A stretch of 23,253 bases of DNA from a virus. A program made the position numbers and the translations under genes. A model generated the notes under the pieces. The model saw only the letters and a list, made by a program, of their open reading frames with translations, made no database searches and was not told the DNA's origin. Location: positions 1 to 23,253 of IMG/VR virus record IMGVR_UViG_3300023301_000109. One strand, written 5' to 3'. Below are positions 3,837-20,522 of the stretch, one piece after another; position 1 is the first letter of the stretch, and each line of letters opens with the position of its first letter.

Positions 3837-5302
3837 TGTCAGAAACATTAGAAAACATAAAAATACCATATCCAACAGAGGGTGTTATACGGTCCGCTCA
3901 ACTTAGCGATACTATTTGCCCTGAAAATTCTGTGCAACTTGCACTTAATATGCACTTCGACAGGATAGGGTCTGTAACAACTCGACTTGGAGTTGCCACT
4001 TATGCCCCTACTTTAGCAGGTAGTGTTGGAACTTTTGGAACTTTAAATTCTCAATCAAATTCAATTAAGTATCTTTTCGCAAGAGTTGGAGTAACGGTTC
4101 AAGCTCTAAATTCAACAGCAGGTACTTGGGCTTCAGTTAGAACATCCTTAACTGGTTCAGGAAAAGCTAGGTTTGGTCAATTCCTAAATAGGACTTGGAT
4201 GGTAAATGGAAACGCTGGAGATGTCCCAAAAACTTCTAACGGAGGAACTTTCGATACAACTGATGTTCCAGCAACTCTTCCTAAAGGAGATTTTATTGAA
4301 GCGGGGTATGGAGGTCGCGTGTGGATAGGTGATGCCTCTAAAGATATTCTTTATTACACAGATATTGTTCAGTCAACTGACGGAACATCTTATGTAACTC
4401 CTCTTACTTTTACATTAACAACAAACTTCCTTTCTACCTTTTCTCCTCAAGATGGTGAATCAATGACCGCACTATTTCGAGTACCGAAAGCTCTTCTACT
4501 ATTTAAACAAAATCATATTTACCGAATTTACAGTACAACAAACGTCGACCCGTATCCTGCTTACAATGTTGGAACTTACTCGCAAGAGTCAATTGTCCAA
4601 GCAAAAGATGGTATTTATTTCCATCACTCTTCAGGGTTTTATAAATTTAATTACTCTGGTCAACCCACAGAAATATCTAGGAGAGTTATTGATTTTGTGA
4701 AAGCAATTCCAAGAACTTCTTACGAAAGTGTGACAGGAGTTTATGATGGGAATGATTCCGTGAAGTGGTCAGTTGGTGCAGTGACAGTTGAAGGTGTTGA
4801 GTACACGAACTGTCAAATGAGATATTCAATCTCTACACAAATCTGGACCATCTATGATTTTGGAGGAACAGTTATTACTGCTTTAATTAGCTTTGATAAC
4901 GGAACTACAATCGAGCAAGTTGCTGGAACTTCTACAGGAGTCGTAGCAAAACTTGATTCAGGATTTACTGACCTTGGAGCAAGTATCTCCTACGAGTTGA
5001 TTGATAGATGGAGGTCTTATGTAGAAATGTATTCTCATTCTAAAAAGATTTCAGGGTTTTCAGTTCTATCAGAAAACGGGGGTGGTGCTTTGGTTCAATA
5101 TCAAACTCAAAAAACAGGAGTAAATGAATGGACTGACCTCGGTACGATTAATGAAAACTATGCTTCACTCTTCCCAAATTCCGACACTTCGGACTTCAAC
5201 ATTTCTCGATTGAGAATTCAAGGGATTTCAAAAGGTACACCAATCGTCTTAAACGGTATTGAGTTACTAAAACTATCAGACGAAGGATTAAATAGTAATT
5301 AA
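3836..5302 (+). CDS. Putative tail hub / DNA-stabilisation protein (beta-rich)
   Basis: This 488-residue, strongly beta-predicted protein has alternating Gly/Ser/Thr strands throughout and no membrane segments. The N-terminal stretch (CPENSVQLALNMHFDRIGSV followed by TTRLGV) resembles the opening of phage hub proteins of the T7 gp12 / P22 gp10 class, in which an Asn-rich turn precedes a phrase about an Arg-Gly start. Later blocks (GGRVWIGDASKDILYYTDI and KQNHIYRIYSTT) look like propeller blades. It is translationally coupled to the gene before it, and a tail fibre follows 6 bases after its stop. The placement in the tail tip or hub of a short-tailed phage is inferred; the family match was recognised by eye only. 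Confidence 0.5.
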   Translation: MSETLENIKIPYPTEGVIRSAQLSDTICPENSVQLALNMHFDRIGSVTTRLGVATYAPTLAGSVGTFGTLNSQSNSIKYLFARVGVTVQALNSTAGTWASVRTSLTGSGKARFGQFLNRTWMVNGNAGDVPKTSNGGTFDTTDVPATLPKGDFIEAGYGGRVWIGDASKDILYYTDIVQSTDGTSYVTPLTFTLTTNFLSTFSPQDGESMTALFRVPKALLLFKQNHIYRIYSTTNVDPYPAYNVGTYSQESIVQAKDGIYFHHSSGFYKFNYSGQPTEISRRVIDFVKAIPRTSYESVTGVYDGNDSVKWSVGAVTVEGVEYTNCQMRYSISTQIWTIYDFGGTVITALISFDNGTTIEQVAGTSTGVVAKLDSGFTDLGASISYELIDRWRSYVEMYSHSKKISGFSVLSENGGGALVQYQTQKTGVNEWTDLGTINENYASLFPNSDTSDFNISRLRIQGISKGTPIVLNGIELLKLSDEGLNSN

Positions 5303-5308
5303 AATAAT

Positions 5309-7312
5309 ATGAAACTAACAGACTTATTATTGAACAGACAACTATACAGAGATGCAGACCAAGATGATTCTACAAAGGATGCTGTTTTTCAGTCTGTTAA
5401 TAGTAATCCAGAAGAGCCGGCTCCACTTCTTTCAGGAGAAGCTGCACAAGATATTAATACAAGTAATGTGTTTGTGAATGGGCAACAACTCGAAGAAGGG
5501 ACTATTCCGCAGACGACATTAGATGTTTCAAACTGGGGATGGGGTCAAACTTCAGCTTTTACTTCCGCTGATTTAAATACAGTAAATTGGGGAGCGGGAA
5601 CTTTCACATCAGCAGGAGGAACTTCCTATGCAATTAGTGCGGGAAACACTGGCGACATGTCAGCGAAGACATATGTCTATTTGGATTTACTAGCCTCTGA
5701 AACGCAATATCAAATTACAACAACCTCTGCAGACTCTGTGGGGTTGGGGAAAGTTCTAATTGCTGTGGCTCAAAACGCTGCCTCTAATGCAACTTTTAAT
5801 CTTTCAGAAGCTACTCAAATTGTAGGAGATAATATTCTTGCGAATACAATCAATGCTTCAAAAATGAATGTAGCCCAACTGTCTTCAATTTCTGCGAACA
5901 TTGGTACCATTACATCAGGTCTAATTACCGGAGCGACAGTACAAACAGCCACTTCAGGGTATCGACTGGTTATGTCTGGTTCAAATAACTCTTATGAATT
6001 TAGGTCAGGAGCAACCTTGCTTGCTGAATTGAAAGCTCGAGTTACACCAGATTCAGGATTAGCAGGAGGTGTTTTTCAACACGGAACAGGGGTAACTGGT
6101 ATAGAAATAACAGGTCAAGGAGAGGGAGCTGGTTCAAGAACCATAAGTAGTTTCACATCTAACAATGGATATTTTAGAATTAATGATGGAGATTTATCTT
6201 CAGACAGCATTACCACAAATATTCCATTTACCTCAACAACTACGATTGCTGCTAGTAATCTTTCAGGGACAAACACAGGAAATCAATTTACAAATACAAC
6301 TGCTTCAAGACTTATAGGAAGAACATCGGCTTCAAGTGGAGCGGCACAAGAAATAACTTTAGGAACAGGACTATCTATGTCTGGAACAACTTTGAATGCC
6401 AGTGCCACAGGTGCAAATACAGCTTTGTCTAACTTATCTTCTGTTGCAATAAACACATCACTAATTTCAGACACTGCCAGTCTGGACAACTTAGGGTCAT
6501 CTGGAACTCCTTGGAATGATATTTACGTTGATGATATTTATCTAACTAATGGTTCAGGAGGAATACGCTACAACTCAAACTTAGCTATTGATATTTACGC
6601 AAGTCGAATAGAACTTGGTTCTAGTTACAACGAACTATCTCCTGCCTCTAACTTACTAGCTTCTTTGGGAACATCTGCAAACAGGTGGAATGAAATCTAT
6701 GTAGCAGGAGGCTTCTTCTACGGAGCAATAGACATGAACGGAAATGACATTACTGATGTCGACATTGTTTCTGGTACTTCTGGAAACATTGATTATAGCA
6801 TTACAGGTCGTATTCAGATATCAAATCATTTCGACCCCGCAGATGGAGGAAGTTTCAACATGGGAGGGTCTACAAGATACTGGGGTGATATTTCATACAA
6901 AACACTTACTGACCGAGGGTGTCTTGGTTGGTATGATGATGGCGTGGAAATGAGAAATGGAGAAGTTGTATCAGATGTGGAGGCACTGAAATCACTAAAA
7001 AAACATCCAACATTAAAAACTCCTGCTGGAGCAGCTCGTATTGATTATACTTCTATGCCAAAACACGTGTACATTCCTGCCATGAATCACAAGAAAGAAA
7101 TTTTACCTCAAGATGAAGATGGTAATTATTACGAAATGGTAGAACAGAAAGTAAAAAATGAAGAGACTGGAAAGATGGAAAAAAAATTAGTCAAAATGAA
7201 AGCAGAAGAAGGAGCTGAAACAACTGCACTTATTGCAATCATGATTGGAGCGATTAAAGAATTAAGTGGAGAAATAGATTTATTAAAAAAAATAAGATTG
7301 CCAAAGCAATAA
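5309..7312 (+). CDS. Putative tail fibre protein
   Basis: The protein has 667 residues. The first ~130 are beta-rich with Trp-Gly turns (NWGWGQTSAF). The centre is Ser/Thr/Gly-rich with phrases such as SSISANIGTITSGLITGATV, typical of trimeric fibre shafts. A short motif recurs three times: LGSSGTPWNDIYV (~394), LGTSANRWNEIYV (~452) and MGGSTRYWGDISY (~517). The C-terminal ~110 residues change character to charged and helical, ending in an amphipathic helix (IGAIKELSGEIDLLKK). This resembles the terminal coil of intramolecular-chaperone (S74-like) fibre ends, but I do not see the chaperone's diagnostic catalytic motif. It probably binds the host surface. The start follows AAAATAAT with no Shine-Dalgarno. 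Confidence 0.7.
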   Translation: MKLTDLLLNRQLYRDADQDDSTKDAVFQSVNSNPEEPAPLLSGEAAQDINTSNVFVNGQQLEEGTIPQTTLDVSNWGWGQTSAFTSADLNTVNWGAGTFTSAGGTSYAISAGNTGDMSAKTYVYLDLLASETQYQITTTSADSVGLGKVLIAVAQNAASNATFNLSEATQIVGDNILANTINASKMNVAQLSSISANIGTITSGLITGATVQTATSGYRLVMSGSNNSYEFRSGATLLAELKARVTPDSGLAGGVFQHGTGVTGIEITGQGEGAGSRTISSFTSNNGYFRINDGDLSSDSITTNIPFTSTTTIAASNLSGTNTGNQFTNTTASRLIGRTSASSGAAQEITLGTGLSMSGTTLNASATGANTALSNLSSVAINTSLISDTASLDNLGSSGTPWNDIYVDDIYLTNGSGGIRYNSNLAIDIYASRIELGSSYNELSPASNLLASLGTSANRWNEIYVAGGFFYGAIDMNGNDITDVDIVSGTSGNIDYSITGRIQISNHFDPADGGSFNMGGSTRYWGDISYKTLTDRGCLGWYDDGVEMRNGEVVSDVEALKSLKKHPTLKTPAGAARIDYTSMPKHVYIPAMNHKKEILPQDEDGNYYEMVEQKVKNEETGKMEKKLVKMKAEEGAETTALIAIMIGAIKELSGEIDLLKKIRLPKQ

Positions 7313-9402: not shown

Positions 9403-12400
9403 ATGATTAAATATTCCCAAGCAAAGCCAGAAAATAAATACAGGTATTCAGCAGCAAAACCTGAACAAAACAGGTCTTTGCCTCCTGCTCCAAGAACAAT
9501 GCTACCCATTGCGACTCCTATTACTTCTGGACCGAATCAGAATATAATCCCGTTCCAACCTCCTGTTGTGGAGAAAAAACCATACTCATTTCTTGACAGT
9601 GTGGCACAACAAAAACCTGCGAGAGAAGGTCAATTTAAATTTGGTGAACAGAAAGCGGTGGTTCCTCAATTGCTAAAAGATGTTGCTACAAATCAGAAGA
9701 ATAATTTTAATAAAGGGACTGAAGAGTTTCAGAGAGCAGGAGATAAAAGTAGAGAATTATTCCAACCTCTTCAAGATACTGTTCGAAAGCCATTTCAAGG
9801 AGCTTATAATTCTATTGAAGCTGGGAGTAAAGTACCTCTTAAAGTCTTGAATACCCCAGAAATCCAGAAAGGAATGCAGTTTGCTTCAGAGAGAACTTCT
9901 GGAACAGGTATTGTTTCAATGATTGAAGCAGCTGGTCCTGAAGAAACTTTCCGACAGGCATACGATGCCAACAGAGCAGCTCAAGCTGGAGACCCCTCAA
10001 AACTAAATCAATTTTTATATCAACTTGGAGATACTCTTCCCCAGACAGCTTTTGGAGTTGCTCTGAATTTCGTACCAATAGGAGGACCTGCATTATCTAC
10101 TGCATATTGGACTGCTTTATCTGCCAACGAACAGGTACAAAGCCAAGGGTCAGTAGAGAGTTTGAGACCAATTGTCATTGATGTTCTAGGGGATAGGATG
10201 CTTGGAAACTCGATTCAAGGATTATTCAAAGCTCCTGCGGACACACTAAGAAAATCAATTCTTCAAAACTTCGGAGTTGAGGGAGGAACAGAAGTTGCTC
10301 AAGACCTTTTGAAATATCAAGACGCTTACCTACGAGCTGACACTGATGAAAAGAAAGCAAAGATTTTACAAGATGCAAAAGATTATTTTACAAGCGGACA
10401 AATCCTAATGACCTTTGGAGTTGGAGGTGTTTCTGGTGCCACAGTTGGAACTGCCGGATACACAATTAATCAGTCAAAGCAGAAAGACCAAGAGAGGCAC
10501 AGAAGTTTTCTTAACTCAAGTGACCAACAAGAGGCAATGTTTACTCCAGACTTTCCTACCCCTCCTTCCGATTCTAATGCAGTTGTTCCACAAGGCAGCC
10601 AATCTGACATGACAGCAGAGCTACCAAGTCGTTTTGAAACAGCTCAAGAGTTATTAAAGGAAATTGGAAAGCCTCGATACGGAGCTCAAGGTCTAAGTGT
10701 GAACAGAAATGAAGCAAGACAACTTGTGCAGTATTTAGTATCACTACCCAAAAGTACAAATAAGGAAAGAGGAATAGTTTACAAACCTTATGGAGCTCAA
10801 GGGAACGAAGTAGATATCATATTAGGGGATACTGGGATAGACAGTGGTGATTCGTTTTATTCTTCTGGAAAAGTTGTGGTAGAAGCAACTAAAAATTCAG
10901 ACGGAACCTACACAATGAGTAATAGATTAAGAACGCATGGAACTCCCTTATCAAAAGATGCTGTGCTGGACCGTCTTTCTGATGCTAAGTTAATTGAATC
11001 AACAAACAGACCAACCCAAAAAGTTACCAGTAACGAAACTTCTCCAACAGGAGGTCCAGGGTTTAGTCGAATGTCTCGGTCATTGGATAAGATGGTTCAA
11101 GATGGAACAATGCTTCCAGAAGATACCACTATCCTAAAAACACTATTTGAAGGAACAGATGATAGATTGCTAGGAACTATGGACTACTCTACAAATGGAA
11201 GACTTACAAGGTCTCTTGGTAGATTCAGACAAAACGCCATCAACGGTGCAAGAACTCCAGGGTGGGGTTCTATCGAGATGCAAAAAGGATTATCGAACAC
11301 TGGCAAAGGACCGGCTTCAAGGGTTTTTACTCACGAATTTGGACACGCAGGATATTTCTTAGTTCTATCAAAAGAAGAACGTGCGATTTCCGATGGTGTC
11401 TACAACAGTTTAGGTAAGGGTGGTACAAAAGCATTATTCCAAGGAGGACTTGCAAACAACCCCAACTACCACGCAGGTAGTGCTCAAGAATTCTTTGCTG
11501 AAAGTTTTGCTGAATATGTTTTCTCAAATAAAGTTCCAGCCGCTCAAATGGAACCTCTACTTAAAAAAGTAGCAAGAAAATTCTTTGATGGATTAAAGCG
11601 ATTAGTAAATCGTGGAAATATTAGTGCTCTTGAAACAATGAGACCTATCTACGAAAAGATTCTAGCCGGTGATAGCTCAACTCCATTATCTCAATTTGCT
11701 AATCAAGATTCTTCAAGCTTTAAGAATGAGCTTAGAGAGCTGATGAATAAAGGAGCACTTCCTGTTCCGAGTACAGAAAAACCTACAAATGTAGAACCAG
11801 CTCAAGTTCCTCTGGATGCTTTATTCCCTAGTGTCACAAATCAAACACCGAAAAGAAATCCAAACGCTCCGGACCCAACATCTCCTATCGAGCCAGTTGA
11901 AGTTGAACCTAAAGAGAAAGTTGGAGAAGAGAACAGAAGAACTCCAAACAGATTGAAAGTAGGATTGTTCAATCGGTTGGCACAATCTCCGATATCTGTA
12001 ATGAATAAGCTTGGACTAAGAGAAAACTACATAGAACTAAAAGCTGCAAACTTAGCAATGGAGAAAGAAAAAGAGGAGGTATTAAAGCAAATAAGAGGAT
12101 GGATGGATTCACTTCCTAGTTTTAAAGACAGCAGTAGAAGAATTTTTGACCATCTTGATGGAGAAAAAGTTGAGCTTACTCAAGAAGAAGCAAAAGTCGC
12201 TGCAGAAATAAGAACGTGGTTAGACAGTTGGGCTGACCGACTTGAGATAGAACCAGGTGACAGAATTACAAACTACATTACTCACATATTCCCGAAAGAA
12301 GATGACCAAGGTATCCCAGAAGGGATTGAAGCTTTTATTAGGAATACTATCCCCGGAGAAGTTTACAACCCTTTCTTACTAAAACGAACTGGAGCAGAGG

Positions 12401-13710
12401 GTTACCTAAAAGATGTTTGGACTGCACTTGAAGTGTATGGGAAAAGAGCAGTTAGAAAAGTTCACATGGACCCACCTCTAGCAAATCTTAAAGAAGCTAC
12501 TACACAGTTTGAAGATAGTCAGAAACATTTTATTCAAGACTACGTTGCACGAATAAACATGCGACCTACAGATGTTGATAAAGGAATTGATATAAACATC
12601 AAGCAAGTTTTTGGTAATTTATTTGGAGCAAGACCTACTCGCTCAATAACGACGTTCTTGAGAAAATTAAACTCTCGGTCAAAGATTGCAGGGTCAGCAG
12701 TTACTTTTGCAAAAAACCTTACTCAAGGAGTAAACACATTCTCTGAACTTGGTTCAAGATACACAGTTGTGGGTTACTATGGTCTATTTAAAAAAGGTGC
12801 CGGAAAGGAACTAAAAGACAATGGTGTTCTTCTGGATTCTTTTGCACAGGACCAGGTATACAGTGCAGTAAGAAGATTCGCAGAAACAGCAGATAAAATA
12901 TTGTATACGAATATGCGTGTTTCTGAATTCATAAACCGTGGAGCAGCTTATTTTGGAGCTAAAGAAAAGTATCTAGCTGGGAAAGTATCACCAAAGAATG
13001 TAAAAAAAGCTCTAAATAAAACTGTTGAAAAAGGTTATAAACCTACAGAAAAAGACGCTGTCGAGTACGGAAAGTTCGTAGCTGAAACAACACAGTTTAC
13101 TTTCGGAGCATTAGATACTCCTGTAAATATGCAAAGTGATTTAATGAGAACCACATTCCAATACCAAACATTTACTTTGAAGCAAATGGAAAGAATAATT
13201 GGTCAGGTGAAGAATGGAGAGTGGGATAAATTTGCAAGATATATATTTGCTTCTTCATTACTGTTTGCTTACATAGGAAAATTATTCGGGATGGGTCTGA
13301 AAGATGTGTTCCCTTATGTTACATTCGGAGCTCCTCCTGTTCTATCGTTCTTTAATGATGTTTTCCAGGAAGGAATTAAAGGAGAAGATGACTGGGGAAA
13401 TAAACTTGATACAGAAGAAAGAGTAAAATCTGTTGGAAAATCTATATTTACAAACGTGGTTCCTGCCGGTGCACAAATAAAAAGAGGTTATGAAGGTGTA
13501 AAAGCTGTCGATGAGGGGAAAGTTAGAACTGCATCAGGAAAGGTGAAGTACACCATAGACCAAACTCCAACAAACTATGCGAGAGCAGCTCTTTTTGGAA
13601 CCTACAACTTATCAGAAACTCAAGAATACCACGACAAAAAAGATAAGAAAAAAGATGAGAAGAAGAAGACATCATCATCATCTGCAGGAAAGTACGGTCC
13701 TGCGAGATAA
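9403..13710 (+). CDS. Giant polyvalent internal virion protein with HExxH zinc-metallopeptidase motif
   Basis: The protein has 1435 residues. The N-terminus is basic and Pro-rich. Hydrophobic stretches lie near residues 205-235 and 330-355. A gluzincin-like peptidase signature is seen at H644-E-F-G-H648, with a downstream AQEFFAESFAEY (E700 the likely third zinc ligand). This spacing is typical of anthrax-lethal-factor-like and other phage or toxin metallopeptidase domains. Residues ~840-1010 are charged and helical. The C-terminal ~350 residues include TTQFTFGALDTPVNM and hydrophobic segments at about 1277-1316, a layout known from large polyvalent or ejected phage proteins. The last ~25 residues are Lys/Ser-rich. 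As the final late gene, ending one base before the terminator stem region, it is probably packaged in the head and ejected with DNA. The protease target (self, host wall or host protein) is unknown. Confidence 0.65.
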   Translation: MIKYSQAKPENKYRYSAAKPEQNRSLPPAPRTMLPIATPITSGPNQNIIPFQPPVVEKKPYSFLDSVAQQKPAREGQFKFGEQKAVVPQLLKDVATNQKNNFNKGTEEFQRAGDKSRELFQPLQDTVRKPFQGAYNSIEAGSKVPLKVLNTPEIQKGMQFASERTSGTGIVSMIEAAGPEETFRQAYDANRAAQAGDPSKLNQFLYQLGDTLPQTAFGVALNFVPIGGPALSTAYWTALSANEQVQSQGSVESLRPIVIDVLGDRMLGNSIQGLFKAPADTLRKSILQNFGVEGGTEVAQDLLKYQDAYLRADTDEKKAKILQDAKDYFTSGQILMTFGVGGVSGATVGTAGYTINQSKQKDQERHRSFLNSSDQQEAMFTPDFPTPPSDSNAVVPQGSQSDMTAELPSRFETAQELLKEIGKPRYGAQGLSVNRNEARQLVQYLVSLPKSTNKERGIVYKPYGAQGNEVDIILGDTGIDSGDSFYSSGKVVVEATKNSDGTYTMSNRLRTHGTPLSKDAVLDRLSDAKLIESTNRPTQKVTSNETSPTGGPGFSRMSRSLDKMVQDGTMLPEDTTILKTLFEGTDDRLLGTMDYSTNGRLTRSLGRFRQNAINGARTPGWGSIEMQKGLSNTGKGPASRVFTHEFGHAGYFLVLSKEERAISDGVYNSLGKGGTKALFQGGLANNPNYHAGSAQEFFAESFAEYVFSNKVPAAQMEPLLKKVARKFFDGLKRLVNRGNISALETMRPIYEKILAGDSSTPLSQFANQDSSSFKNELRELMNKGALPVPSTEKPTNVEPAQVPLDALFPSVTNQTPKRNPNAPDPTSPIEPVEVEPKEKVGEENRRTPNRLKVGLFNRLAQSPISVMNKLGLRENYIELKAANLAMEKEKEEVLKQIRGWMDSLPSFKDSSRRIFDHLDGEKVELTQEEAKVAAEIRTWLDSWADRLEIEPGDRITNYITHIFPKEDDQGIPEGIEAFIRNTIPGEVYNPFLLKRTGAEGYLKDVWTALEVYGKRAVRKVHMDPPLANLKEATTQFEDSQKHFIQDYVARINMRPTDVDKGIDINIKQVFGNLFGARPTRSITTFLRKLNSRSKIAGSAVTFAKNLTQGVNTFSELGSRYTVVGYYGLFKKGAGKELKDNGVLLDSFAQDQVYSAVRRFAETADKILYTNMRVSEFINRGAAYFGAKEKYLAGKVSPKNVKKALNKTVEKGYKPTEKDAVEYGKFVAETTQFTFGALDTPVNMQSDLMRTTFQYQTFTLKQMERIIGQVKNGEWDKFARYIFASSLLFAYIGKLFGMGLKDVFPYVTFGAPPVLSFFNDVFQEGIKGEDDWGNKLDTEERVKSVGKSIFTNVVPAGAQIKRGYEGVKAVDEGKVRTASGKVKYTIDQTPTNYARAALFGTYNLSETQEYHDKKDKKKDEKKKTSSSSAGKYGPAR

Positions 13711-13773
13711 AAAAACACCTCGTTTAGCAAGCTACATAATGTGTACTTGATGTAAAACGAGGTGTTTCTTTTG
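13711..13773. terminator. Bidirectional intrinsic terminator between convergent operons
   Basis: AAACACCTCGTTT (13713-13725) and AAACGAGGTGTTT (13755-13767) are perfect reverse complements, a 13-bp stem with a 29-base loop that holds a further small TACA/TGTA stem. On the + strand it is followed by TTTCTTTT. On the - strand the matching T-run comes from the A-tract at 13709-13715. It starts directly after the stop of the giant late gene and can also stop - strand transcription from the early arm or from the candidate RNA gene. Confidence 0.85.
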
Positions 13774-13866
13774 TACAAGTAGACCAGTTGGTCGTCTTAG
13801 CAACTCCCTAGCTTGGTAAATCCCCAAGTTTTAAGATATGCCTGCTCGATACGCCCAGCCTAACTC
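13713..13866 (-). ncRNA. Candidate phage-encoded small RNA of ~150 nt, unknown class
   Basis: No reading frame of note occupies 13711-13881, and 13776-13860 is about half G+C, clearly richer than the surrounding AT-rich genes. On the - strand a TTGCCT-17-TATAAT promoter (13873-13901) would start an RNA near 13866, and the 13-bp terminator hairpin would end it near 13713. Foldable parts include CTTGG/CCAAG closing a 7-base loop (13812-13828), UCUUA/UAAGA enclosing that arm, two competing stems, GACC/GGTC (13782-13793) and AGTTG/CAACT (13786-13805), and a 6-base match between the terminator loop (13744-13749) and 13776-13781 that would allow a pseudoknot. The 7-base loop lacks the U33 of a tRNA and no T-loop motif is seen. 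A processed 3' UTR is the main alternative. Confidence 0.45.
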
Positions 13867-13872
13867 ATAATA

Positions 13873-13901
13873 ATTATAGGATTAAACTTCTAAACAGGCA
13901 A
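13873..13901 (-). promoter_or_regulatory. Candidate sigma70 promoter of the small RNA
   Basis: On the - strand TTGCCT (13901-13896) and a perfect TATAAT (13878-13873) are 17 bases apart, the same spacing as the two twin promoters at 16668 and 21376. It lies over the 3' end of the preceding gene and points at a stretch without a gene. The -35 matches the consensus at 4 of 6 positions. Chance occurrence in AT-rich DNA is possible. Confidence 0.45.
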
Positions 13902-14124
13902 GAATTAAAGGCACAAAATTTAGTGCTGTCTTTTTCATACCATTAAGTTTTAATTCTTTGATGAATATTTCTTCTGCCTTCTCTACAATTTCTGGAGTTA
14001 ATTTAATTTTTTTCTCCTTCGCCACTTCAGAAAGTACAACACCAAACTCCAATGCAATTCTTAGTGTTGGATTTCCATACAACGGAGGTCTAAGTGTACT
14101 TAGAATTTTATTTCTTTTTACCAT
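13882..14124 (-). CDS. Hypothetical small protein, last gene of the early arm
   Basis: This 80-residue basic protein is of no recognised family. It is mostly helical in character, with a Lys/Glu-rich middle (KEKKIKLTPEIVEKAEEIFI) and a hydrophobic C-terminus (ALNFVPLILACLEV) too short and too near the end to call a membrane anchor. It starts at ATG within the end of the gene upstream (17-bp overlap), so it is probably translationally coupled and part of the nuclease/regulator operon. The candidate small-RNA promoter lies across its last codons. Confidence 0.65.
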   Translation of the reverse strand: MVKRNKILSTLRPPLYGNPTLRIALEFGVVLSEVAKEKKIKLTPEIVEKAEEIFIKELKLNGMKKTALNFVPLILACLEV

Positions 14125-14362
14125 TTTTCTTTTTCTTAATTATCTCTACAGGTTCAGGTTCAGGTGCAAGTACAGGTTCAGGTTCAGTTGGTTCTGCAGT
14201 TAGCTCGTACCGCTCTGTGTCTGTATAGTAAACAACATGCTTAATAAATCCTTCTGGAGTTATTATTTGTTCCGCAGAGGGCACTAATCCTAATTGATTA
14301 CATAGGTTATTAACAACTTGTACTTTCTTCTCACTTGATTTTTGTATTTCTTCTTTTGTCAT
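14108..14362 (-). CDS. Hypothetical protein with Pro-Glu repeat and Lys-rich tail
   Basis: The protein has 84 residues. The N-terminal ~50 are ordinary and helical (VVNNLCNQLGLVPSAEQII). From about residue 56 it becomes an acidic Pro-Glu linker (EPTEPEPVLAPEPEPVE, encoded by a GGTTCA-type DNA repeat as read on the + strand), and it ends in a run of Lys and Asn. This acidic-then-basic disordered tail suggests a protein- or nucleic-acid-contacting extension. The start follows AAATATAAAT with no Shine-Dalgarno, two bases after the RecB-like gene. No function is assigned. Confidence 0.65.
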   Translation of the reverse strand: MTKEEIQKSSEKKVQVVNNLCNQLGLVPSAEQIITPEGFIKHVVYYTDTERYELTAEPTEPEPVLAPEPEPVEIIKKKKNGKKK

Positions 14363-14985: not shown

Positions 14986-15200
14986 AATATATCTTCTATT
15001 TCATTATCACTACGTACGCCACTCCAACGTTTGTATTTTCCAGCTGGAGTTTGTTGAGTTACAGTTCCTGTTGTGAAATAGTAATTCAATCTAACGTTTG
15101 TATTTTCTTGTTTGTAAGAATACATTATAGGATTTTTTGATTCTATTTCTTTCCAACCATAACACTCTAATAATTCTTTTGTAAATTTAAGCTTCTCCAT
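14967..15200 (-). CDS. Hypothetical small protein
   Basis: This 77-residue protein is of no recognised family. The visible text is an N-terminal helix (FTKELLECYGWKEIE), then probable strands (PIMYSYKQENTNVRLNYYF) and a C-terminal helix, so it is likely a small alpha/beta fold with a Tyr-rich sheet. It overlaps the genes on both sides (14 bp upstream, 19 bp downstream), a tight packing that supports it as real and co-translated. The start ATG follows AACAATTAA with no Shine-Dalgarno. Confidence 0.65.
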   Translation of the reverse strand: MEKLKFTKELLECYGWKEIESKNPIMYSYKQENTNVRLNYYFTTGTVTQQTPAGKYKRWSGVRSDNEIEDILCKKLN

Positions 15201-15798
15201 TTAATTGTTTTGACCTTTCTTCAATTACTTCAAGTAGACTATCTTTATTCTCTGCAGTTAGTTTTGTTGATAATCCAATTTGTTTGATAATTAAATCAAG
15301 AGCTTCTGTGCTCATGCAAGATTGAATTGCTTGAGTGGCTTTCACAATTGCCACATCTGCAATCGGTGAAGGTGTCACAGGAGGAGCTTTGTATCCAGTT
15401 TGGTTGTAAGTTTTACCGTCAACAGCTACTGGAGGATTGTCTACAGGTAGTGGCACAAATGGAACTGAACCAATTGAAACTGTTGTTTCCTCAACTGGTT
15501 TTACTACTTCTTTTTTTCTTTCAGCAATCATGAAATATTCTTTCCACAATTTATTCATATGTGGAGTGATGTAGGCATGAGCTTCTTCTGGGTTTTGAGC
15601 CTTTACGACTATTTCAGGGATAATATTTGCATACTGTCCTGTTGGAATAGTCATTCTAATTGAGTAACTAATCATCTCTACTACTTTTTTTACTTCTTTC
15701 TTCACTACTTTCTTTACTACTTTCTTCACTTCTTTCTTCACTTCTTTCTTCACTTCTTTCTTTACTTCTTTCTTCACTACTTTTTTTACAGTTTTCAT
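15187..15798 (-). CDS. Phage protein with N-terminal Val-Lys-Lys tandem repeat
   Basis: The protein has 203 residues. Residues 4-39 are nine four-residue units VKK(V/E), giving a very basic amphipathic helix. Residues about 42-90 hold a compact domain (SIRMTIPTGQYANIIPEIVV, then NPEEAHAYITPHMNKLW) of a kind I recall from phage early genes of unknown function. After a Pro-rich linker (residues ~115-145) a helical C-terminus follows. The basic repeat suggests binding to DNA, RNA or an acidic partner; this is inferred. A second candidate start at Met-42 would omit the repeat altogether, so the repeat region could be translated or partly leader. It lies 4 bases after the upstream gene, in the same operon. 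Confidence 0.65.
   Translation of the reverse strand: MKTVKKVVKKEVKKEVKKEVKKEVKKVVKKVVKKEVKKVVEMISYSIRMTIPTGQYANIIPEIVVKAQNPEEAHAYITPHMNKLWKEYFMIAERKKEVVKPVEETTVSIGSVPFVPLPVDNPPVAVDGKTYNQTGYKAPPVTPSPIADVAIVKATQAIQSCMSTEALDLIIKQIGLSTKLTAENKDSLLEVIEERSKQLNGEA
15682..15789 (-). repeat. Nine tandem 12-bp units coding for VKKE/VKKV
   Basis: Units of the type GAAGTGAAGAAA (coding strand) with one- or two-base variations repeat nine times head to tail, in frame. Keeping the 12-bp period protects the frame when copies are gained or lost, so length variation between relatives is expected. It is not a CRISPR array, since there are no spacers. Confidence 0.85.
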
Positions 15799-16696: not shown

Positions 16697-17983
16697 CTAT
16701 ATATTTATTGTTAATCTCTCTTGAAAATCTTGACCACTCATGACCGTGTCGTGACAATCCATGTCACACCCTTTCACGACTAAGTGGATGTATAAATTCT
16801 TCTTCAATGCGTTCGACCTCAACACTCGACCTGTGGACTGTTCGTAGTCCACATGTCTAAATGATTTACTTGCGTATATTACGCAAGGGAATGTTGGCAA
16901 CTCGTACCCTGAAGAAATTGCACATTGAGCGATTATGATATGTGGGTGTGGACTTTCATTTACTTTGTGGATAAAGCTCCGGTCTTTTGTAGCTCCAGTT
17001 AAAGTTGAAACATTGTATCCTTCTTTCTTCAGAGCTTTTTCAATCTCTTGAATTTGAGCTGTGTAGTTGGCAAAAATTAGTAGCTTCGGGAATTCTTGAG
17101 CTCTTTCTAGGATGTAGGGTATCTTATTATTCTTGAAAATAATTGTCTCATCACTCATGGTGTCTGTTTTATTTTCTCCTTCCACTATTTTCTTTCCGTA
17201 TAGCACTCCATTCTCTATTGTTCGAAGCCTAGCACGCCTAACAAGGGGGTCCGGTTCTGAAAACGACATATCAGTCACTGCGAGCTTTTGCTCTGCTGTA
17301 AGGTCAATTTCAATGACTTTATGGGTCTGTTCCGGAACATCGAAGAAGTCATTCAGACTACCTGTATACCCAAGTCTTTTAATCAAAGTAGCTAATTCTT
17401 GTTTTATCTCTTCAGTCTTCTTTGGTAGCCAAATTCTTCGAACTCCTCCTATTCGAACTTCAGTGTAATACTTGTTTCGGAACTGGTGGAAATCCCAATT
17501 ATTTCCTAGCAAAACTCCAATTGCCCAAACACTCATAGGTTTCGGAGCGGGAGTTGCGGATAGTAAGTACAATCTTTTCGGAGGATGTTTTTCTAAGAAT
17601 TTCTTTGTAGCATCGAATATCTGTGAGGTCTTTGGAATCTGTATTTTATTTCTCTGAACATACGCAGGCATTACTCCAAGATTGTTGTGAACCTCATCAA
17701 TAATAACTGTGTCAAAGTGAGGTAAATCATCCCAAATCTTTCTCAAGTCTTCTTTACTGATTACCATTACACCTTTATTAGTTTCCCACTTTTTATTTTC
17801 TCGTTCCCAAGTCTTATCATCTCTTTGTTGCTTCGGACAAATAACTAAAGTATCTCCTTCAGCTAAGACTAAAGCGGTCCGAGTCTTTGAAGCACCAGTC
17901 CCAAGAAATAGCCCGCACTTTAGTGGGTCTGCATCTATGATTTTCTTTTGATGGTCGTAGAGTGGTAACATATTAGAATTCAT
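16697..17983 (-). CDS. SF2 (SNF2/DEAD-like) DNA helicase
   Basis: The protein has 428 residues. Motif I is at residues 28-34 (GTGASKT, with Ser where a Gly normally precedes the Lys), motif II is D96-E-V-H99, motif III is S142-A-T144, and motif VI is at 382-390 (QSTGRVLRS). The second RecA-like lobe carries LLIFANYTAQ and GYNVSTLTGA. Such ATP-driven helicases are common in phage replication modules and act on dsDNA or branched structures. Its start overlaps the primase stop by 11 bp, so it belongs to the SSB-primase operon. Its stop abuts promoter A. The altered Walker A may still bind ATP since Lys-Thr is kept. Confidence 0.85.
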   Translation of the reverse strand: MNSNMLPLYDHQKKIIDADPLKCGLFLGTGASKTRTALVLAEGDTLVICPKQQRDDKTWERENKKWETNKGVMVISKEDLRKIWDDLPHFDTVIIDEVHNNLGVMPAYVQRNKIQIPKTSQIFDATKKFLEKHPPKRLYLLSATPAPKPMSVWAIGVLLGNNWDFHQFRNKYYTEVRIGGVRRIWLPKKTEEIKQELATLIKRLGYTGSLNDFFDVPEQTHKVIEIDLTAEQKLAVTDMSFSEPDPLVRRARLRTIENGVLYGKKIVEGENKTDTMSDETIIFKNNKIPYILERAQEFPKLLIFANYTAQIQEIEKALKKEGYNVSTLTGATKDRSFIHKVNESPHPHIIIAQCAISSGYELPTFPCVIYASKSFRHVDYEQSTGRVLRSNALKKNLYIHLVVKGCDMDCHDTVMSGQDFQERLTINI

Positions 17984-20339
17984 TAAAGCTATCTTTTTTA
18001 ATCCAATGGGGACTGAACTTCATCCCAGTATATTCAGCTTCTCCTCCACCATACTGTCGAGTGGAGTAAGAGAATCTATCGTCTTTTGCTCCGTAAGCTT
18101 GTACCTCTTTTTGAAAAGTTATGTTAGCTTTTATTTTTCTTCCACCTTCTGACACACTCCACTTTTTATATTCAGAATATAATTCTGGAGCTTCAATTTT
18201 TTCACCTTCTTCTAGAACGATACACTCACTCAAGAATCCTTCAACTGAGGAATTCTCTGCTCGATAATCGTCTAGCATTTTTGTCTGTTCTTTTGTGACA
18301 ATGAAGTTTTCGTTTTGAGCTAAATCATCAAAACCGTCTAACATCCAGTTTAGAATTCCCGAAATCTCTCCGGCAAGAAGTCCAACACTTGACCGCAATT
18401 TCATATTAGGATTTTTTCTATAATTATTTAAGAACTGCACTGCACAAATTCTTCGCTCTGTTGCTGTTGATACATCATCAACTCGTGGCAGTAGGTTTAC
18501 AGAGAACACAAACTTCGCTTGAGGTCTGAAAGTAAATTGTGGCTTGTATTTAATATCAATAGTTACAGGCTCTCCAGAAATTAGTTTTTTCAACTTATTA
18601 CTTTGGTAGTAGTTTCCGGAAACTTCTTCAATTATATTCAATCGCTTTCCAATAAGTCCGTGCATACCAAACGTGCTGTAAAGACTTTCAAGGTCAATGT
18701 GAGAGGTAGCATCTGGTCCAATAACCATTGATATCGTATCTATGAAGGTCGATTTCCCGTTTCCTCCGTCTCCTACCATGAACAAAGCTCGGTCATAAAG
18801 CATCGAAGAGGATAGAATGTACCCACAGAATTGCTTTATCAACCTAGTTTTATCAATCATTTCATCTCCAGACATCCAACTTGCTACACAATCTTCCCAT
18901 ACTGGACATTCCGCTTTAGGGTCGTAAATAACAGGGTACTGAACCAAAGATACAAAATTAGGATTGTGGGGCATCAGCTCTCGAGTCGCGATGTTTAAAA
19001 TTCCATTCTTCACATTCACTAAAAACCCTCCGTCTTTAGAAATTTTCAGTTCTGGTATTATTGATAAAAGACACGCAACTTTGTCCGATACATTCTTTTT
19101 TGTCCTATATCCCCAAAGCATATCTTCATACAATCCATTCAAAACCATGTCGGACATCTCTTGGTCAGACACCATTTTATAAACTCCGTTGTCGTATCGG
19201 AACACGATTCCAATCTCATTCTTTTTCAAGTACGGATTCAATGCCAGTAATTCTCGTTCGTAATTTGAGTATCGGACTTTGTCTTGTTCTCTTCTGTCCT
19301 TTAGAACGCCGGTGTAAGCTTGTTGGATTAATTGACTTTCTTCAGCACTCATATTGTGAGCAATCACTTCGTGCTTATAAGAATAAGTGTAGTTCCCTCC
19401 GAAAGCACTGTTTATAGTATTAACAATTTCTTGAGCTCCACCTCTTTCAGATTCAATCCCATGCCACCCTACTTTTTCAATATGCTGTAAAGCCTTCTCT
19501 TTTTTCCAACCTGCCTGTCTCATTAGTGAGGCTGTAACCATTAAGGCGTGATTTCTCATTCCCTGTTGAGGCAAGGTATCGGGATGTGCAGAGATTAGTT
19601 TCTGAAAACTTTCTCGGTCTTCAATTGGAAACACTTCATTTACTTTATTAAAGAAACTCTGTTTTTCCGCTTGTGACATTTTTTTAGCTTTGTCACCATT
19701 TAAGCTTGCAATGTCGTTGAAAGATAATGCAGAGTCTTTTGTAGGAAATGCACTTTCAATCGCATCCATTGTGTATGTGTTTGCGGTCTCTTTATGTAAT
19801 CCTTTAATCTTAAACACACCTTCAGTTCCAATCTTCCACTGGTCATCAGTCTTTTTCCAGTAGTAAGTATCCGGTACTCGTAGAATTCTAGTAAGGTCTT
19901 TTACCACAGGGTCCGCTTTTAGTTCTGTTACGATATTCTGTTCCAACTGTTCCCACCTCTTCACTTCACTACTCCATTCTAGTTCTCCTAGTCCTTCTTT
20001 ATAAATGGGTTCATCAAGCACCCAATAAATGTGGTATCCGTTCTTAGTCTCTAAAATAAATGTTGGTGCGAGTTTCTCCTTTATTCTTTCAATCTCTTCT
20101 AAATCTTTTCTTCCGTCTATATCAACGAAGAAAGCATTCAAAGAGCTACAATTTTCTTTTTGTGCGTTTGGTGCATTTTTAAATCCATTGACTGTGAAGT
20201 AACTCTCGTATCCACTTAAATTAAGGTCATCTCTTCTCTCTGTGCTTGCTACTGGCAGTCTACCTGCTCCTGTTTGGTCTATGTACCGGAAAGCATGGTC
20301 CGGAAAGTGTGTTAGGAATTCTTTATTTTTTGTTGCCAT
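17973..20339 (-). CDS. Bifunctional DNA primase (AEP) - SF3/D5-like helicase
   Basis: The 788-residue form begins at MATKNKEF. An archaeo-eukaryotic primase centre is seen in AFFVDIDGRKD (D73, D75), with the later histidine motif ETKNGYHIYWVLDEP (H103). A D5-type region follows, then an SF3 helicase with Walker A GDGGNGKST (residues 523-531), IIEEVSG (Walker B) and an arginine-containing TATERRICAVQF. It makes primers and unwinds DNA at the phage origin. The frame is also open to ATG 20516, which would add 59 basic residues. I prefer 20339 because the known domain begins there and a strong hairpin lies in the extension. Its stop overlaps the helicase start. It is preceded by a ~280-bp structured gap. 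Confidence 0.9.
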   Translation of the reverse strand: MATKNKEFLTHFPDHAFRYIDQTGAGRLPVASTERRDDLNLSGYESYFTVNGFKNAPNAQKENCSSLNAFFVDIDGRKDLEEIERIKEKLAPTFILETKNGYHIYWVLDEPIYKEGLGELEWSSEVKRWEQLEQNIVTELKADPVVKDLTRILRVPDTYYWKKTDDQWKIGTEGVFKIKGLHKETANTYTMDAIESAFPTKDSALSFNDIASLNGDKAKKMSQAEKQSFFNKVNEVFPIEDRESFQKLISAHPDTLPQQGMRNHALMVTASLMRQAGWKKEKALQHIEKVGWHGIESERGGAQEIVNTINSAFGGNYTYSYKHEVIAHNMSAEESQLIQQAYTGVLKDRREQDKVRYSNYERELLALNPYLKKNEIGIVFRYDNGVYKMVSDQEMSDMVLNGLYEDMLWGYRTKKNVSDKVACLLSIIPELKISKDGGFLVNVKNGILNIATRELMPHNPNFVSLVQYPVIYDPKAECPVWEDCVASWMSGDEMIDKTRLIKQFCGYILSSSMLYDRALFMVGDGGNGKSTFIDTISMVIGPDATSHIDLESLYSTFGMHGLIGKRLNIIEEVSGNYYQSNKLKKLISGEPVTIDIKYKPQFTFRPQAKFVFSVNLLPRVDDVSTATERRICAVQFLNNYRKNPNMKLRSSVGLLAGEISGILNWMLDGFDDLAQNENFIVTKEQTKMLDDYRAENSSVEGFLSECIVLEEGEKIEAPELYSEYKKWSVSEGGRKIKANITFQKEVQAYGAKDDRFSYSTRQYGGGEAEYTGMKFSPHWIKKDSFNEF

Positions 20340-20356
20340 ACATTTTTTTGTTAAAG

Positions 20357-20435
20357 CAAAGGTAAAAAGAAAACAGCCAATGTTTTTGTGGAGAGGGAAT
20401 GTATGTAACCCCTCGTAGAACATTGACTGTTTTCT
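20357..20435 (-). terminator. Terminator- or attenuator-like hairpin before the primase gene
   Basis: AGAAAACAG-C-CAATGTT (20368-20384, + strand) pairs with AACATTG-A-CTGTTTTCT (20419-20435), 16 pairs with one C/A mismatch. The 34-base loop contains a second stem, GAGGG/CCCTC (20393-20397 with 20410-20414). On the - strand the stem is followed by a T-rich run (TCTTTTTACC), the form of an intrinsic terminator. The primase ATG lies ~28 bases beyond. As no gene ends just upstream, an attenuator or RNA switch in the SSB-primase message is the likely role. If the longer primase were translated, this sequence would be coding. Confidence 0.55.
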
Positions 20436-20522
20436 GTCTATCTTTACTATTTTTTTGTTTTGAAATTTCTTTATACATACATTTTTTCTCTTCGATGGGC
20501 TAATGGGGAAAGTCATATTTTG

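Follow-up and report, generated by a model that had tools for sequence, protein, structure and literature searches.

An IMG/VR virus fragment of ~23 kb very probably carries a genuine non-coding RNA gene in the gap between two convergent gene blocks (positions 13901-13709, - strand, of the window, which is the whole 23,253-nucleotide stretch analysed here). The same site holds the RNA in related phages, its helices covary, a covariance model built from some members found others that had not been seen by eye, and a promoter is conserved together with the RNA. As judged from sequence comparison, these observations uphold the original prediction of a free-standing RNA gene at this junction.

Anatomy of the RNA gene

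Directly upstream of the RNA lies the last early gene (13882-14124, - strand), which encodes 80 aa and is conserved in RNA-bearing and RNA-lacking phages alike. Convergent with the RNA is the last late gene (9403-13710, + strand; 1435 aa), in the place of which other phages that keep the RNA have unrelated genes. None of the listed ORFs belongs to the RNA body itself; those that reach into it are short and overlap the flanking genes, in agreement with the earlier view that no credible reading frame lies between the late and the early gene. The body had also been described as GC-richer, and its G+C content is 0.46 compared to 0.37 in the window.

A promoter of the form TTGCCT-17-TATAAT had been placed at 13901-13873 (- strand), where it is indeed present. 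The -35 hexamer TTGCCT (13896-13901) falls within the final codons of the 80-aa early gene, and the -10 hexamer TATAAT (13873-13878) suggests a start of transcription near 13866. With 10 of 12 positions matched, this is the best sigma70-type match between 12 and 16 kb of the window. The number of promoter-like matches in the same interval shows no excess (9 found versus 11.5 in shuffles), and conservation is therefore the real evidence for the promoter. A strict pattern, consisting of TTGC, two free bases, 16-18 nt and a TATAAT-like hexamer, occurs at this position in 13 of the 19 RNA-bearing phages and in none of 10 RNA-lacking junctions, and three more RNA-bearing phages have TTGCNN located 17 nt from a weaker -10. 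The RNA thus comes with a conserved sigma70-type promoter of its own at a fixed place, which phages without the RNA lack as well.

The gene ends in an enlarged intrinsic terminator hairpin with an inner hairpin (13713-13767, - strand). As predicted, its 13-bp stem is perfect, pairing 13713-13725 with 13755-13767, and it is followed by a run of seven T (U-tract at 13709-13715), which together form the intrinsic terminator expected of a small RNA gene. An A-run on the 5' side of the hairpin would enable the terminator to stop the convergent late operon too. A pseudoknot between the terminator loop and the body had also been proposed. The six-base complement on which it was based exists, but its length is at the level of unrelated pairs (mean longest match 6.1 within a sequence versus 5.9 in cross-pairs) and the pairing is not conserved; the pseudoknot was consequently rejected.

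Between promoter and terminator, folding and the match of covariance model R1 delimit a rod domain closed by helix P1 (13774-13869, - strand, as are all of its parts). The 5' strand of P1 (TATGAGT T AGGCTGG, 13855-13869) aligns with the family sequence UU-ACUGG, and the 3' strand (CTGGTCTACTTGTA, 13774-13787) aligns with CUGGU-UU. The alignment further identifies a conserved AUCG (13847-13850), of which UCG is the 5' strand of P2, and a conserved ACGAC (13791-13795), of which CGA is the 3' strand of P2. Above P2, folding places P3, P4 and a variable apical hairpin with internal loops between them (13799-13842), a part that varies in length from 43 to 103 nt across relatives. In L022 (17118-17271) and L018 (9932-10078), the upper rod is enlarged to about 95-103 nt versus about 50, with the P1/P2 base unchanged.

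In individual minimum-energy folds, the rod is ordered as an outer P1, a 2x2 UU/UU loop, ACUGG paired with CUGGU or UUGGU, a small asymmetric loop, P2 (UCG/CGA), a loop of ~4x4, P3, P4 and a variable tip. The UU/UU loop is exchanged for pairs in the window, L003 and L029. Of 19 sequences, 18 adopt such a P1-closed, unbranched rod as their minimum-energy fold, which shuffled sequences almost never do. The sole exception is L019, whose best fold lacks the rod and in which the rod is present when the sequence is folded with its flanks. The conserved letters are found in the internal loops and in a G-U-rich helix, and the loop tips are variable. The region 13711-13866 folds with -49.8 kcal/mol (z = -4.24; none of 200 shuffles reached this value), part of which comes from the terminator, since the rod by itself has z = -2.29. 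The predicted transcript is about 155-160 nt long. Taken by itself, the window sequence makes a suggestive case only for an RNA gene.

Members, covariation and loss

Relatives were gathered by searching IMG/VR with the D5-like primase (17973-20516) as the query, which gave primase identities of 53-73%, and additional relatives were gathered with the 80-aa early protein. The 80-aa gene served as a marker of the orthologous convergent junction, and the junction was read in each contig. No relatives were found by tblastn of the late gene against IMG/VR or by a DNA search of phage records. A primase scan of genome contigs gave merely 21-42% identical fragments, nearly all from Bacillota, and no prophages of the clade, which is why no host can be named.

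Fifteen clear members were identified (the window, L003, L010, L012, L018, L019, L021, L022, L026, L029, L042, L044, L045, L134, and L225), with L046 and L105 as near copies of L022 that were grouped with it. Four more diverged sequences (L028, L036, L111, and L116) are probable members on the basis of site, promoter and fold, and are weak or undetected with covariance models. In the RNA-bearing junction, seen in at least 14 phages besides the window, the 80-aa gene is followed by the promoter, a body of ~95-150 nt and the large terminator hairpin. In the 10 RNA-lacking junctions (L006, L007, L008, L009, L033, L017, L039, L095, L106, and L113), the 80-aa gene is followed at once by a short, simple hairpin of 16-30 nt, without a promoter. 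The relatives are metagenomic contigs, several of them fragmentary, and absence of the RNA elsewhere in the genome holds for the contig DNA only. The last late gene differs in many members although the RNA is retained, which assigns the RNA to the early side and rules it out as a part of the late gene. L101 has TTGCGT-17-TATAAT at the same site (5204-5330) and a body of ~100 nt without a match to the model, which may represent a member that has diverged strongly or else another RNA.

The check originally suggested was to align relatives and look for covariation, and compensatory changes in paired columns do exceed both shuffles and slid controls, as in a conserved structured RNA family. For the two arms P1 and P2 in 17 members, 58 double-change cells were counted versus 25.5 +/- 3.9 in shuffles (0 of 500), shuffle counts not being probabilities for related sequences. 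In the same 17 members, 76.8% of the P1/P2 cells were paired, compared to 62.7% in shuffles and 38-52% (about 42% overall) with partners slid. The concern over shuffle counts among related sequences is answered by the slid control and by the unseen members described below. A native alignment of 11 sequences and a model-fitted alignment of 16, the latter of which leans towards structure, give the same covariation picture. The inner part of the 3' hairpin was too gappy in a MAFFT alignment for pair counting. Between L012 and L225, the inner letters of this hairpin are kept (CTTAGCAAATAATTTCAAATTATA) and the lower stem changes from GTTAC/GTAAC to GTCTT/AAGAC in a compensatory manner.

Covariance model R1 was built from 11 members, and its E-values, which are rough, were 5.7e-11 for the window (a training member, matched at 13766-13870) and 2.6e-6 and 0.005 for L018 and L022, respectively, which are outside the training set. 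With E-values of the same rough kind, R1 also found two members that had been unseen by eye, L134 (record of L024; 4e-6) and L225 (1.2e-7), which in both cases follow immediately on the 80-aa gene and have the promoter. A DNA pattern scan for the rod motif returned one true member, which was already known (L056 = L026), while the other hits were due to chance and were rejected by the covariance model. Weak model hits in L025 and L048 lay away from the junction and were rejected on inspection.

Presence and absence of the RNA on the primase tree require two changes versus 6.0 in shuffles, with 0 of 500 as low, which would most simply be explained by an ancestral RNA gene that was lost twice. 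The original prediction held that absence from close relatives would speak against the gene. This applies in part only: the RNA is absent from a well-supported clade of six and from one other lineage, which is best read as losses of an older gene. Its loss in two lineages implies that the RNA is not essential in all hosts.

Relation to known RNAs and probable function

The RNA had been said to match no nameable class, and this holds in Rfam 15, where no match at the gathering cut-off was found for the window and seven relatives. A relaxed Rfam search gave chance-level hits only, which differed between members, and ARAGORN identified no tRNA or tmRNA in the window. 6S RNA is a rod-shaped non-coding RNA which acts in trans on a protein. 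The RNA described here is likewise rod-shaped and non-coding, but its folds have small internal loops only and lack the 6S closing stem with a large central bubble mimicking an open promoter, and Rfam gave no 6S match. The large ornate RNAs GOLLD and ROOL are often found in phages. The present RNA, at ~155 nt, is a simple rod plus hairpin. Both GOLLD and ROOL are structured non-coding RNAs of several hundred nt that form homo-oligomers, have no known protein-coding role and were discovered by comparative genomics (PMC12286853).

We favor, with middling confidence, the reading of a free-standing gene for a stable ~155-nt RNA which would act in trans by binding a protein, in a regulatory or decoy role. 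Host RNA polymerase would make the RNA separately from the early operon, and P1 and the terminator would lock the 5' and 3' ends, respectively, which may render the RNA long-lived. Protein binding in trans is suggested by the pattern of conservation and appears the most likely mode of action, because the conserved letters lie in internal loops and the G-U-rich helix and the tips are variable. No phage gene family appears with the RNA in every case. As no accessory phage gene tracks the RNA, the likely binding partner is either a host factor or one of the core phage proteins, and the RNA would titrate or regulate this partner. More tentatively, the RNA may belong to an undescribed phage RNA class in which the rod would capture the substrate of a particular host protein or imitate it, thus acting as an RNA-based inhibitor made early in infection, with RNA polymerase, a ribonuclease or a defense protein as examples of candidate targets.

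Many Hfq-type phage sRNAs use an exposed segment to base-pair with mRNAs of the phage or the host, and the ordinary sRNA gene anatomy seen here, with a sigma70-type promoter and an intrinsic terminator with a U-tract, would suit such an antisense RNA. Precedents are lambda PreS and VP882 VpdS, phage sRNAs that work with Hfq on mRNAs or host sRNAs (PMC12197685). These are likewise small non-coding phage RNA genes, and the promoter-terminator anatomy is typical of such sRNAs. However, they are Hfq-dependent and rely on RNA-RNA contacts, whereas a structured rod is conserved here and the short leader and linker and the variable loop tips offer no evident conserved single-stranded seed. A target search covering the phage mRNAs found no consistent duplex partner among 27 ortholog clusters (best mean rank 0.24, with 9 genes), and we consider antisense action less likely than protein binding. 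The constant location at the 3' end of the early operon could alternatively indicate a cis-acting element, in which rod and hairpin would shield the early mRNA at its 3' end and stop convergent transcription without any separate function of the RNA; the hairpin is also bidirectional in sequence, with an A-run and a U-run. What makes this improbable is the promoter inside the last gene, which is conserved together with the rod and lacking in phages that have no rod. Furthermore, relatives terminate with a hairpin of 16-30 nt only, and the conserved internal loops would be needless for a mere stabilizer.

The phi29 prohead (packaging) RNA is a free-standing RNA of 120-174 nt in which the 5' and 3' parts pair in a helix, features that are shared by the RNA described here. 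A structural role in the virion or in DNA packaging would also agree with its compact, structured form, similar size and separate 3' hairpin domain. The packaging role raised in the original prediction is nevertheless very unlikely, since the phages have genes for a portal and for the large subunit of a terminase, and related lineages have the same genes and do without the RNA. The terminase large subunit and portal were identified in RNA-bearing L012, whereas the phi29 RNA works with its own type of packaging ATPase in place of a classical terminase. The RNA is, moreover, a linear, unbranched rod in nearly all members, without the three-way junction and the interlocking or conserved kissing loops of the phi29 RNA, and it occupies another genome position. 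Conserved internal loops combined with variable helix lengths are typical of ribozymes and aptamers, and this combination is also seen here. Catalysis, such as self-cleavage, or the sensing of a small molecule is still scarcely to be expected, as Rfam gave no ribozyme or riboswitch match, relaxed thresholds included, and there is neither a downstream gene nor an expression platform on the same strand.

Structured phage RNA genes are rarely recognized because each is confined to a small clade. With its constant genomic position, a minimum of 15 members with covarying helices, loss lineages that serve as natural controls and a working covariance model, the putative trans-acting RNA can be tested for its function once one member phage and its host are cultured. 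If a host protein is bound, phages would have an RNA-based tool in addition to the means of cell takeover already known.

Proteins encoded near the RNA

The 80-aa protein belongs to a family of small proteins (A4) of about 72-80 aa, which is well conserved in all these phages, where it closes the early operon. Neither the A4 family nor the 1435-aa late protein (9403-13710) has a match in Pfam or PHROG. The late protein contains HEFGHAGY, which resembles the HExxH motif of zinc metallopeptidases. An early protein encoded at 15187-15798 starts with a run of KKEV/KKVV lysine repeats, and the product of 14108-14362 of the window has a tail rich in EPEP/PEP.
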